From NCBI GenBank assembly GCA_902482185.1, contig CABSZR010000018.1, positions 1-13,353 of the forward strand: 13,353 nt of DNA, given 5' to 3'. Of this stretch, positions 5,026-7,744 are shown in pieces (the stretch's first letter is position 1; each line of letters starts with the position of its first letter). The position numbers and the translations under genes were made by a program. This DNA comes from an uncultured Collinsella sp. (GTDB taxonomy: Bacteria; Actinomycetota; Coriobacteriia; Coriobacteriales; Coriobacteriaceae). Under the pieces are notes generated by a model. That model saw nothing but the letters and a program-made list of their open reading frames with translations. It made no database searches and was not told where the DNA came from.

Positions 5026-6117
5026 ATGAAGAAGAACAAGAACTATGTGGACCTGAAGGACCAGCCGGTTCCCGAGGGCCAGCATCTGCTCGAGGTCGAT
5101 GACCTAAAGATGTATTTCCACACCGAGGATGGCGTCGTTCGCGCTGTCGACGGTGTCTCCTACACGCTCGATCGCGGCGAGACCCTCGGTGTCGTCGGCG
5201 AGTCCGGCTCCGGTAAGTCCGTGACCGCCATGACCATCATGGGCCTTATCTCGATGCCTCCGGGAAAGATTGAGGGCGGCGACGTTCGCTATCGCGGTCG
5301 TTCTATCCTCGAGATGACCGAGGAAGAGATGCAGCACATTCGTGGTAACGATATCGCGATGATCTTCCAGGATCCTATGACCTCCTTGAACCCGGTCTAT
5401 AAGATCGGCAAGCAGGTAGGCGAGGGTCTTCGTCTGCACCGTGGCTACTCCAAGCAGGAGGCGCTCAAGCGCGCCACCGAGCTTTTGGACCTCGTGGGTA
5501 TCCCCGAGCCCGAGAAGCGCGTCAATGAGTATCCGCACCAGTTCTCTGGCGGTATGCGTCAGCGCGTCATGATCGCTATGGCTCTTGCCTGCGACCCCGA
5601 TATTCTGATTGCCGACGAGCCCACGACTGCCTTGGACGTTACCATTCAGGCTCAGATTATTGAGCTTATGCAGGAAATGCAGGAGAAGAACGGCAACGCC
5701 ATCATCATGATCACCCATGACCTGGGTGTCGTCGCTGATATGGCCGACAAGATCATGGTTATGTATGCTGGCCGTCCCGTCGAGTTCGGTACTGCTGAGG
5801 AAATTTTCTACGAGAGCCGTCACCCCTATACCTGGGGCCTTATCCGCTCCATCCCGGAGCAGGCCATCGATGAGAAGAAGCCGCTTACGCCGATTCACGG
5901 CAACCCGCCTTCGCTCATGAACCTGCCTGAGGGCTGCGTCTTCTCTCCTCGCTGCCCCTATGCGACGGACAAGTGCCGCAAGCAGCGCCCCGAGCGCGTT
6001 GTCACCGAGTCTGGTCATTACTCTGCATGCCACTACTCCGGTGACCCCGAGTTCCTCAAGAAAGCCCCTGAGACGTCCCGTACGCGCAAGGATTCCAAGA
6101 AGGGAGGCGAGGCGTAA
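5026..6117 (+). CDS. oppD: Oligopeptide ABC transporter ATP-binding protein OppD
   Basis: A 363-residue ATPase of the Opp/Dpp importer. The nucleotide-binding motifs are intact: Walker A GESGSGKS (58-65), Q-loop FQDPMTSLNP (Gln115), signature FSGGMRQR (173-180), Walker B ILIADEP with the catalytic Glu (193-199), D-loop TALDV, and the switch His231. The C-terminal oligo/dipeptide domain is present (NPPSLMNLPEGCVFSPRCPY). It carries Cys304, Cys310, Cys317 and Cys335, the spacing of the conserved Cys cluster reported to bind an iron-sulfur cluster in some Opp/Dpp ATPases. The start lies 2 bases after the oppC stop, with GGA overlapping that stop as a weak ribosome site, which implies translational coupling. 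The gene ends in TAATG, sharing one base with the oppF start. OppD pairs with OppF to form the ATPase heterodimer. Confidence 0.96.
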   Translation: MKKNKNYVDLKDQPVPEGQHLLEVDDLKMYFHTEDGVVRAVDGVSYTLDRGETLGVVGESGSGKSVTAMTIMGLISMPPGKIEGGDVRYRGRSILEMTEEEMQHIRGNDIAMIFQDPMTSLNPVYKIGKQVGEGLRLHRGYSKQEALKRATELLDLVGIPEPEKRVNEYPHQFSGGMRQRVMIAMALACDPDILIADEPTTALDVTIQAQIIELMQEMQEKNGNAIIMITHDLGVVADMADKIMVMYAGRPVEFGTAEEIFYESRHPYTWGLIRSIPEQAIDEKKPLTPIHGNPPSLMNLPEGCVFSPRCPYATDKCRKQRPERVVTESGHYSACHYSGDPEFLKKAPETSRTRKDSKKGGEA

Positions 6118-7145
6118 TGGCAGATACCAACGAGCGCACTCCGCTGCTGAAGGTCGAGCACCTCTCTAAGGAGTTTCCCGCTGAGTCCGGCATGTTCGCC
6201 AAGCGCTTCTCCAAGCGTGTCGTCTCTGCTGTGAATGACATTTCGTTCGAGATTTATCCGGGCGAGACCTTTGGCCTGGTCGGCGAGTCTGGTTGCGGTA
6301 AGTCCACCACGGGCCGTACCATCATGCGCCTCACCAAGCCGACGGCCGGCAAAGTGTTCTTCCAGGGCAAAGACGTTGCCGAGATGAGCAAGCACGAGAT
6401 CAAGGACATGCGTCGCGAGATGCAGTTCATCTTCCAGGACCCCTATGCTTCGCTCAACCCTCGTATGACCATCGGTGAGATCGTCTCCGAGCCCATGACC
6501 ATTCATGGCGTGGGCACCAAGGAGGAGCGCATTGAGCGCGTCCGCGAGCTTCTCGACGTTGTCGGACTGAACCCCGAGCACATCAACCGCTATCCTCATG
6601 AGTTCTCCGGCGGTCAGCGTCAGCGTGTCGGTATTGCCCGCGCTTTTGCGCTGAAGCCCAAGCTGATTATCTGCGACGAGCCAGTTTCTGCTCTGGATGT
6701 GTCCATTCAGGCCCAGGTTCTGAACCTGCTCAAGGAACTGCAGGACAAGTTCGGTACCGCGTATCTGTTTATCGCTCACGACCTGTCCGTCGTGCAGCAC
6801 ATTTCCGATCGCGTTGCCGTTATGTATCTGGGTAAGATGGTCGAGGTTTCGGACTGGAAGACGCTCTACAGCGAGCCTCACCATCCGTACACGCAGTCGC
6901 TGCTGTCTGCCGTGCCGGTTCCCGATCCTGATATCCAGAAGACCCGCAAGCGCATCATCCTCGCTGGCGATCCGCCGTCGCCGCTGGATCCGCCGACCGG
7001 TTGCCGTTTCCACACGCGCTGCCCGATCGCTCAGGGTATCTGCTCTGAGAAGCTTCCCGAGTTTAAGGAAGTCGCACCGGGCCACTGCTGCGCCTGCCAC
7101 TTCGCGGAGCCGTTCCCGATCAAGGAATCGCACATCGACCTGTAG
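6117..7145 (+). CDS. oppF: Oligopeptide ABC transporter ATP-binding protein OppF
   Basis: A 342-residue second ATPase. It has Walker A GESGCGKS (56-63), Q-loop FQDPYASLNP (Gln107), signature FSGGQRQR (163-170), Walker B LIICDEP (183-189), D-loop SALDV and His221. VGESGCGKSTTGR and DPYASLNPRM are typical of OppF/DppF rather than OppD. The C-terminal domain again holds a Cys cluster (Cys296, Cys302, Cys309, and CCAC at 324-327). The ATG at 6117 overlaps the oppD stop by one base; GGGAGGCGAGG at 6102-6112 provides the ribosome site. It is the last gene of the operon. The stop is followed 16 bases later by a large palindromic element at 7162-7293, which probably also serves as the transcript end. 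Confidence 0.96.
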   Translation: MADTNERTPLLKVEHLSKEFPAESGMFAKRFSKRVVSAVNDISFEIYPGETFGLVGESGCGKSTTGRTIMRLTKPTAGKVFFQGKDVAEMSKHEIKDMRREMQFIFQDPYASLNPRMTIGEIVSEPMTIHGVGTKEERIERVRELLDVVGLNPEHINRYPHEFSGGQRQRVGIARAFALKPKLIICDEPVSALDVSIQAQVLNLLKELQDKFGTAYLFIAHDLSVVQHISDRVAVMYLGKMVEVSDWKTLYSEPHHPYTQSLLSAVPVPDPDIQKTRKRIILAGDPPSPLDPPTGCRFHTRCPIAQGICSEKLPEFKEVAPGHCCACHFAEPFPIKESHIDL

Positions 7146-7161
7146 TCGGTTGTTCTCGTCC

Positions 7162-7293
7162 GGGCCCGCGCTGGACTTAGTTTTCAGAACGTCCTCGACC
7201 ATGGAAACCCCCTTATCCTGCTCCTTCGGAGCTGCGGATAAGGGGGTTTCCTGGTCTGCGGAATGTTCTGAAAACTAAGTCCAGCACGGGCCC
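7162..7293 (+). repeat. Long nested palindromic element A, structured and of unknown family
   Basis: This 132-base element folds into one long hairpin. The outer arms are 29 nt (7162-7190 with 7265-7293, a single C/A mismatch) and run from GGGCCCG to CAGAAC. They lead into an internal loop, GTCCTC (7191-7196) opposite TGCGGAAT (7257-7264), and then a middle helix GACCA/TGGTC (7197-7201 with 7252-7256). A perfect 16-bp inner stem follows (7203-7218 with 7236-7251), and the apex GCTCC-TTC-GGAGC spans 7220-7232. It starts 16 bases after oppF. The strand is assigned so that GTCCTC comes first; element B (7476-7600) has the same architecture on the other strand. There is no long T-run, so it is not a standard terminator. 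I see no target-site duplication and do not recognise the family. Confidence 0.85.
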
Positions 7294-7359
7294 TGCGGCA
7301 ACGCGGCAGGGAGGGGTGCGATTCCTTGATCGCTCACTTAATCTAATAGGAAAGTTAGT

Positions 7360-7390
7360 GAGGCCGGAGCTTTAGCTCCGGCCTCTTTAT
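7360..7390 (+). terminator. Rho-independent terminator-like hairpin
   Basis: A perfect 11-bp stem GAGGCCGGAGC/GCTCCGGCCTC (7360-7370 with 7375-7385) closes the loop TTTA and is followed by TTTAT. It is the best terminator candidate for the opp transcript, although it lies about 215 bases after the oppF stop. Bases 7316-7337 just upstream form a weaker hairpin, and 7333-7341 can pair with 7355-7362 in a fold that excludes this terminator. Confidence 0.7.
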
Positions 7391-7395
7391 ATAAG

Positions 7396-7414
7396 GGCTC
7401 GGCAAAGCCGAGCC
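7396..7414. repeat. Short perfect hairpin
   Basis: GGCTCGGC/GCCGAGCC (7396-7403 with 7407-7414) closes the loop AAA. It is 6 bases after the terminator-like hairpin at 7360-7390 and has no T-run. It may be a second, back-up stem of that terminator. The following stretch 7415-7475 shows no gene and no further structure that I can support. Confidence 0.6.
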
Positions 7415-7475
7415 ACCAAATTTGCATCAGCCCCCAGAACATGTTTGAGAACTGTGCCTGAAGTATGTATTTGCA

Positions 7476-7600
7476 GGCCCCGAATCGGTGTTGCCTCCCG
7501 GCGCATTCCGCAGGGGGAGCGATATTTTGCAGCACGAAGTGCGTAGCAAAATATCGCTCATGCCCGAGGACGCGCCGGGAGGCAACACCGATTCGGGGCC
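7476..7600 (-). repeat. Long nested palindromic element B, same family as element A, inverted
   Basis: This 125-base element has perfect 29-nt outer arms (7476-7504 with 7572-7600) beginning GGCCCCGAATCGG. Inside is an internal loop (7505-7512 opposite 7566-7571), a 3-bp middle helix (7513-7515 with 7563-7565), a perfect 14-bp inner stem GAGCGATATTTTGC (7517-7530 with 7546-7559), and the apex GCAC-GAA-GTGC (7532-7542). Read on the minus strand, the internal loop is GTCCTC opposite TGCGGAAT and the apex loop is TTC closed by C-G, exactly as in element A. The outer and inner stem sequences are otherwise unrelated to those of A. The strand is assigned from that core. No target-site duplication is visible. 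Confidence 0.85.
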
Positions 7601-7638
7601 GAACATATAGATCTACCAGCGCATTTACAAATTCGTAA

Positions 7639-7687
7639 ACTTTTTTGAAAAAAGTGCTTGCACAGTTCTCGAATCATAGGTTATTAT
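7639..7687 (+). promoter_or_regulatory. Promoter of tRNA-Leu with upstream A/T palindrome
   Basis: TTGCAC (7658-7663) and TATTAT (7682-7687, 18-bp spacing; 17 if read as TTATTA) form a sigma70-like promoter. Two bases upstream of the -35 lies a perfect 17-base palindrome, ACTTTTTTGAAAAAAGT (7639-7655), which resembles an UP element and recurs at the other two tRNA promoters. The leader before the tRNA is about 50 bases. Confidence 0.75.
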
Positions 7688-7744
7688 CTTCCTCGTTGAA
7701 CGCGCGGGTCTAACAAAACGAACTGCGAATCAACAACATAGCAT

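Follow-up and report, generated by a model that had tools for sequence, protein, structure and literature searches.

Two large hairpins, which we call A and B, lie in the window (the whole 13 353 nt stretch of DNA from an uncultured Collinsella sp. that was analysed) and belong to a family of gene-end hairpins present in Coriobacteriaceae and a few relatives. Members combine a near-invariant core, GTCCTC opposite TGCGGAAT, with near-Watson–Crick stems that are specific to each locus. Our preferred explanation, to which we assign a probability of roughly 0.6, is that the family is a REP-like element of mRNA 3′ ends with self-renewing stems and a core read by a protein; its position relative to genes is what points to an action at the RNA level.

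Two hairpins with a common core

Hairpin A (7162–7293, forward strand) starts 16 nt past the stop codon of an oppF-like gene (oligopeptide/dipeptide ABC transporter ATPase; 6117–7145, forward strand), in the sense orientation. Its 29 nt outer arms (7162–7190 and 7265–7293) are 97% complementary and enclose the two core strands, GTCCTC at 7191–7196 and TGCGGAAT at 7257–7264, the latter free of any IS110-family end in the window. Further in, a short middle helix leads to a 16 bp inner stem, the arms of which (7203–7218 and 7236–7251) pair at 100%, and to a TTC apex. Hairpin B (7476–7600, reverse strand) is in the reverse orientation to A and upstream of a tRNA-Leu; its 29 nt outer arms are fully complementary, its core strands are found at 7566–7571 (GTCCTC) and 7505–7512 (TGCGGAAT), and a short middle helix again precedes the inner stem (14 bp) and the TTC apex. 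Between the two, about 65 nt past A, is a terminator-like hairpin with a T-rich tail (7360–7385, forward strand).

Each hairpin folds at about −107 kcal/mol (z of about −15; no shuffle out of 200 is as stable), and the pair GTCCTC...TGCGGAAT occurs twice in the window, compared with a mean of 0.02 in 200 shuffles. The initial annotation, which had described two inverted elements of shared architecture with inner stems of 16 and 14 bp, was thus accurate in its coordinates, arms, core and apex. It had also described the shared core as an internal loop. The two core strands are indeed common to A and B, but the predicted folds show this loop as partly closed: GTCC is paired with GG(A)AT, in the order G·T, T–A, bulged A, C–G, C–G, T×C mismatch and C–G, and what remains is a bulged A, the T×C mismatch and a bulged T.

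A repeat family of the Coriobacteriaceae

The nearest genome compared (G001) has 64% of sampled 31-mers in common with the window. The core pattern was matched in 36 of 58 relatives; by eye, the hairpin copies are within the genus and many of the other matches are due to chance. A pattern search of the fetched loci returned 77 copies, 64 of them distinct (some places were counted twice). For the covariation alignment, 24 representatives were retained from an original 26 (loci L053 and L065 were left out). In this alignment 39 of the 50 aligned pairs are changed on both sides, and 91.9% of the cells are paired, compared with 67.5% after shuffling and 40–48% after sliding. A covariance model built from 24 copies (R1) has matches in 36 of the 43 Collinsella-genus genomes: 10–19 matches in 21 of them and 0–5 in the others, except for G016 with eight. 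Some of these are second-strand hits on the same element, the 17 matches in the single-contig genome G059 corresponding to 15 sites.

In other species, most of the copies read carry the same core on a mini-apex, with arms of up to 42 bp free of mismatches; G021 also has an expanded copy. Arms are mostly of 20–50 bp, the longest being 42 bp without mismatch and 50 bp with two. A second model (R2), built from 16 of these compact copies and matched by expanded ones too, finds compact copies in the first genome group as well (for example in G059 at 2088789) and has matches in 39 of the 43 genus genomes. Across the class, R2 matches 65 of 296 genomes. The genus accounts for 34 of these (out of 37), the other members of the family for 14 (out of 15), the remainder of the order for 12 and that of the class for five; the denominators 37 and 15 are taken from the order of a listing that omits 211 match-free genomes. 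Outside the family (17 genomes), the best E-value is above 1e-6 in 12 and stronger in G139, G176, G251, G267 and G311, with the loci of G267 and G311 left out of the sequence reading. An exact scan of named genomes returned 39 stretches, 22 of which come from Collinsella, Enorma, Limicola or Slackia records, and all 14 further regions around R2 matches rematched R2; the ten that passed a stricter pattern were read. A Treponema MAG from horse feces contains three exact core matches (L217, L249 and L252), which are weak by model and possibly a contamination.

The covariance-model search of Collinsella and other Coriobacteriia that the initial annotation had proposed therefore yielded the family it expected: further copies exist, their core is constant, and their stems vary in sequence and covary. 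Part of this core conservation is by construction because the search pattern and the models include the core and would overlook any copy in which it has been lost or equalised.

Position at the 3′ ends of genes

The copies were also mapped relative to gene 3′ ends, as had been suggested. For 114 of 137 distinct copies a sense frame of at least 100 codons stops within 80 nt before the arm. The antisense side has such a frame in 18 of 137 copies, and the same holds for 389 of 2740 random positions. In the sense direction, the stop-to-arm distance has a median of 21 nt and is 7–33 nt in 112 of the 114 copies. These copy counts include orthologues, an effect that counting by locus group reduces. 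With frames of 80 codons, a limit of 60 nt and a majority of members, a sense stop precedes the arm in 23 of 27 groups and an antisense one in five of 27, compared with 170 of 1120 (15%) at random (binomial p of 1.4e-15). The group counts exclude elements with arms shorter than 20 nt and concern 27 of the 28 groups, those with less than 400 bases of flank being skipped. A sense stop is absent in four of the 27 groups, with no notable sense frame before B or before the group L147/L167/L181. No sense gene was found ending before B, which is thus an exception to the gene-end rule. This gene context supports the ‘3′-end element’, one of the candidates initially listed.

The upstream genes include those for GroEL, phosphofructokinase (pfk), fructose-bisphosphate aldolase (fba), pyruvate:ferredoxin oxidoreductase (nifJ), phosphate acetyltransferase (pta) and PEP carboxylase (ppc), as well as grcA, asd, thrB, ilvE, larD, glpK and the genes for Fe-ADH, Hsp20, ribosomal protein S10, Usp and a Zn/Cd-type P-ATPase. 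Other upstream frames encode a K+ transporter, a serine dehydratase, an M29 peptidase, an amidohydrolase and a PhoU-like protein, or have no match. The hairpin follows the same gene in different species in the case of thrB, asd, fba, nifJ, groEL, Fe-ADH and the Zn/Cd-type P-ATPase. Genes of this kind are typical of central metabolism and of stress proteins, and their identity suggests that they are highly expressed.

How the stems stay paired

The initial annotation held that conserved loops with covarying stems mean selection on a fold. The stems do covary, but this inference was too strong. Selection on an RNA fold should tolerate G·U far more readily than A·C. Among 2460 outer-arm pairs, 2409 are Watson–Crick, 16 are G·T, 19 are A·C and 16 are of other kinds; when each combination of locus group, position and pair counts a single time, the non-Watson–Crick events are 16 G·T, 18 A·C and 16 others. 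The arms were scored with G·T as a mismatch, which lowers the absolute rates and leaves the G·T:A·C ratio unaffected. Since G·T is as rare as A·C in the outer arms, copying from arm to arm at the DNA level, namely template switching, is indicated over selection on RNA alone, and the outer-arm covariation may largely originate from such copying. Between closely related elements, 255 changes affect both sides and 106 affect one side, counts that are not independent of one another. Template switching has been put forward as a process by which RNA hairpins arise and are preserved (PMC8794818), and the quasi-palindrome events described in yeast were observed only under high transcription (PMC3820800).

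The core behaves differently from the arms: in the copies seen, its strands are not equalised and two unequal strands are kept. For this reason the core is probably under selection, with the proviso that equalised copies would escape core-based searches. The inner stems follow yet another pattern, being shared between loci, whereas the outer arms are mostly locus-specific. In G019 the larD element carries the inner stem of the nifJ element with one base of difference, and the ppc and grcA elements have a common inner stem within unlike outer arms; the remaining larD copies read combine nearly identical arms with a different inner stem. Judging by these copies, inner stems are exchanged between loci.

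The rarity of G·T is not predicted by RNA selection alone and thus also favours a reading in which the hairpin acts as DNA, offering a chromosome or repair protein a cruciform or a single-stranded site, and lies at gene ends since it is tolerated there. The long arms (42 bp mismatch-free, 50 bp with two mismatches) could be accounted for in the same way. The preference for the sense orientation and the short distance to the stop codon fit a feature of the mRNA better than a DNA site, and we consider this alternative rather unlikely, although it is the likeliest of those to our preferred reading.

Mirrored flanks and the oppF locus

Across locus groups, a weaker core-like motif borders the outer arms (TGCG...A/T-C-G on the right and ...CC on the left). 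In A it corresponds to the outer linker TGCGGCAAC (7294–7302, forward strand), a weaker copy of the core motif, with GTCC on the opposite side at 7158–7161. At some loci the coding end of the upstream gene reappears, inverted, downstream of the hairpin and beyond this outer motif. The 3′ end of the oppF-like coding sequence (7117–7142, forward strand) thus has an inverted copy at 7307–7332 (85%), forming a flank stem around A. Around B, an inverted repeat of 93% joins 7444–7457 and 7660–7673 (reverse strand), the second of which overlaps the start of a promoter-like site (7659–7687, forward strand); the sequence overlapping this promoter-like site of the tRNA-Leu is in other words mirrored across B.

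To assess such repeats, left and right flanks of different loci were paired as a null. The median p is at most 0.05 in nine of 28 locus groups and above it in 19, and six of the nine score above all 6000 null flank scores. The G·U:A·C ratio of the flank stems is 29.8:9.8 (summed per-group means), compared with 1916:1036 in the null, and without locus L152 there is no clear G·U excess over the null. A signal of RNA selection in the flank stems was therefore rejected, as this one locus drives most of the excess. At L152 (genome G059), a hydrolase-like gene has approximately 50 nt of its 3′ end mirrored past the hairpin, with many differences that are compatible with G·U; an antisense reading frame was first suspected at this locus, but it is the sense frame that has weak hydrolase matches.

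Presence or absence between strains, a check that had also been proposed, was followed at oppF in 30 loci, from which 13 without a located stop motif and the mis-anchored L309 were left out. Hairpin A is uninterrupted in eight of the 12 close relatives with a located oppF stop. It is deleted in G029, where a stub of the left arm is left, and it is interrupted in the three others, by foreign DNA at the core in G014 and G061 and by foreign DNA that begins after the TTC apex in G064. In this last strain (L321/L291) the foreign DNA resembles an IS end by eye, and the contig ends there. No core-bearing element follows oppF in the four more distant species viewed. In more distant Collinsella (L310, L311 and L313), T-tailed terminator-like hairpins, identified by eye, are found after oppF in place of the A of C. 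aerofaciens-like strains.

Template switching at transcribed gene ends could also generate palindromes that are simply neutral, the core being kept by gene conversion or only seemingly kept because it serves as the search key. The mirrored coding ends, the loss of A in one of the 12 close relatives and the inner stems common to loci within G019 (nifJ/larD and ppc/grcA) would all be expected if this were so. Template switching would nevertheless tend to equalise the two strands of the asymmetric core, which stay unequal (equalised copies would be missed), and in different species the hairpins follow the same genes. We regard neutrality as improbable.

An IS110-family transposon lands in the core

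The insert in A of G014 encodes both the DEDD and the Transposase_20 portions of a transposase of the IS110 family. This copy is interrupted by IS21 and IS3 genes, which lie between these portions or next to them. The element spans 722–7008 of L318, and further ends are found at L322–L330. Its end sequence occurs nine times in seven of the 43 genomes. Seven of these nine ends fall exactly on the GTC(C)|TG position of the core and occupy four loci, told apart by their flanks: oppF (three), grcA (two), pta (one) and groEL (one). The oppF insertions, in G014, G061 and G010, end at the equivalent of TG 7257–7258 in A; the shared oppF and grcA insertions may be inherited rather than independent. 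The remaining two ends are located elsewhere within an asd-locus element, with a changed end, and outside any element, respectively. Both junctions could be seen in G014 and G008, with TG at each.

The non-coding end beside the start of the transposase holds a 9 nt segment, ACATTCCGC, that is complementary to the target GCGGAATGT and is the predicted guide, and AATAGGAGC in the same non-coding end matches the donor end. The core thus has both hallmarks of a site targeted by IS110-family elements, namely that insertion occurs at a core dinucleotide and that the non-coding end holds a complementary guide, and a bridge RNA is predicted. In the case of IS621, REP elements are targeted via a bridge RNA (PMC11208160).

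The initial annotation had listed a hairpin-type mobile element among its candidates, and part of this idea survives, in that inner stems are exchanged and an IS110-family transposon lands in the core. That the hairpin itself transposes as a cassette is very improbable: dispersed copies, inner cassettes common to loci with unlike outer arms and the lack of a core-bearing element after oppF in the four more distant species would agree with it, but it is unsupported because copies follow the same genes in different species, many positions are common to strains as well as to species, and RAYT-like transposase loci hold other repeats, with no hairpin hit in 17 of them.

A proposed mechanism

In the mRNA 3′-end reading that we prefer, the transcribed hairpin would work as a barrier to 3′ exonucleases, as a processing site or as an aid to termination, and its core would be read by a protein. 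DNA polymerase switching template at the quasi-palindrome would use one arm to rewrite the other, a process that heavy transcription may promote, and would sometimes extend the palindrome into the coding end. The stems would need no fixed sequence because template switching would keep copying one arm onto the other. As with REP elements, a transposon of the RNA-guided IS110 family has come to use the repeated core as its target. Assembled into a single scenario, these steps would describe self-renewing regulators of gene ends, with a fixed, protein-read core, stems rewritten by transcription-linked template switching that extends into the coding end, inner hairpins swapped from one locus to another and an RNA-guided transposon that has adapted to the core; this complete version is speculative, and we hold it as a possibility rather than an expectation.

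The family offers a natural bacterial case in which covariation of stems, commonly regarded as proof that RNA is under selection, can be told apart from copying at the DNA level by comparing G·T with A·C. With 10–19 model matches in each of 21 genus genomes out of 43, it is also tractable for studying how perfect hairpins arise and persist. Moreover, it points to a candidate core-binding factor at gene ends, and it adds to the REP case of E. coli a natural family of targets, with a predicted guide, for RNA-guided recombinases of the IS110 family.

Comparison with known systems

A search of the open PMC literature revealed no earlier description that we could recognise as this hairpin family. 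Rfam gave only tRNAs above the gathering threshold over the whole window. Below the threshold, 11 matches with E-values of up to 10 fall within 7100–7720, the best of them to a miRNA family (44 bits for a cut-off of 90), and a known Rfam family was rejected on this basis. Collinsella-1 RNA (RF01700), a structured RNA candidate named after the same genus (PMC2864571), has no match in 7100–7720 at E-values of up to 10 in Rfam 15, where this family is expected.

Integron attC sites are variable hairpins with conserved asymmetric or extrahelical bases. Unlike them, the hairpins studied here follow the stop codons of single metabolic genes, with no cassette array in the loci read. The family resembles intrinsic terminators in being a stable hairpin soon after a stop codon, in the sense orientation. 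It differs from them by its conserved internal loop, by the second hairpin inside the C. aerofaciens-like form and by the lack of a clear T-tract. Indeed, in 28 group representatives no heptamer with more than five T of seven is found within 40 nt after the arms, and the identification as an intrinsic terminator was rejected for want of a clear T-tract directly after them; L364 has TTTTT a few bases past its lower stem. In a looser scan, seven of 28 groups have a T-tailed hairpin within 300 nt downstream, compared with 15 of 270 random stretches, and two of 28 have one within the element itself; a stricter scan gives three of 28 for each of these two locations.

REP elements are defined by a palindromic stem sequence that is conserved across copies and by their association with a RAYT (Y1) transposase gene. 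In the Collinsella family the stems are not conserved in sequence: each locus keeps its own, and the internal core alone is constant. As for RAYTs, Y1_Tnp is present in 37 of the 43 genus genomes and absent from three of the four without R2 matches. The scarcity or absence of elements in genomes lacking Y1_Tnp suggested an origin from RAYT/REP, which was rejected since R2 has no hit (E-values of up to 1) in 17 loci around long Y1_Tnp genes, some of which hold other repeats. Some RAYT-like genes (L375, L376, L377 and L381) are flanked by other short repeats recognised by eye, for example around TTGGGGACGTG or GGGACAGGCAC, apparently REP-like elements of their own.

The likeness to REP elements is in how they are used. 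In E. coli, REP elements are the insertion sites of IS621, an RNA-guided IS110-family element (PMC11208160), and both families consist of dispersed, intergenic, imperfect palindromes that serve as landing sites for such an element (here with seven of nine ends at the core, at four loci). On the sequence evidence the Collinsella hairpins are thus REP-like as an IS110 target, yet they are not REP elements by stem conservation or by RAYT association. Finally, they share with the template-switch-maintained RNA hairpins, as described in PMC8794818, perfect stems that change on both arms, and differ from them, as described there, in forming a repeat family with a fixed core, located at gene ends and accompanied by mirrored coding ends.
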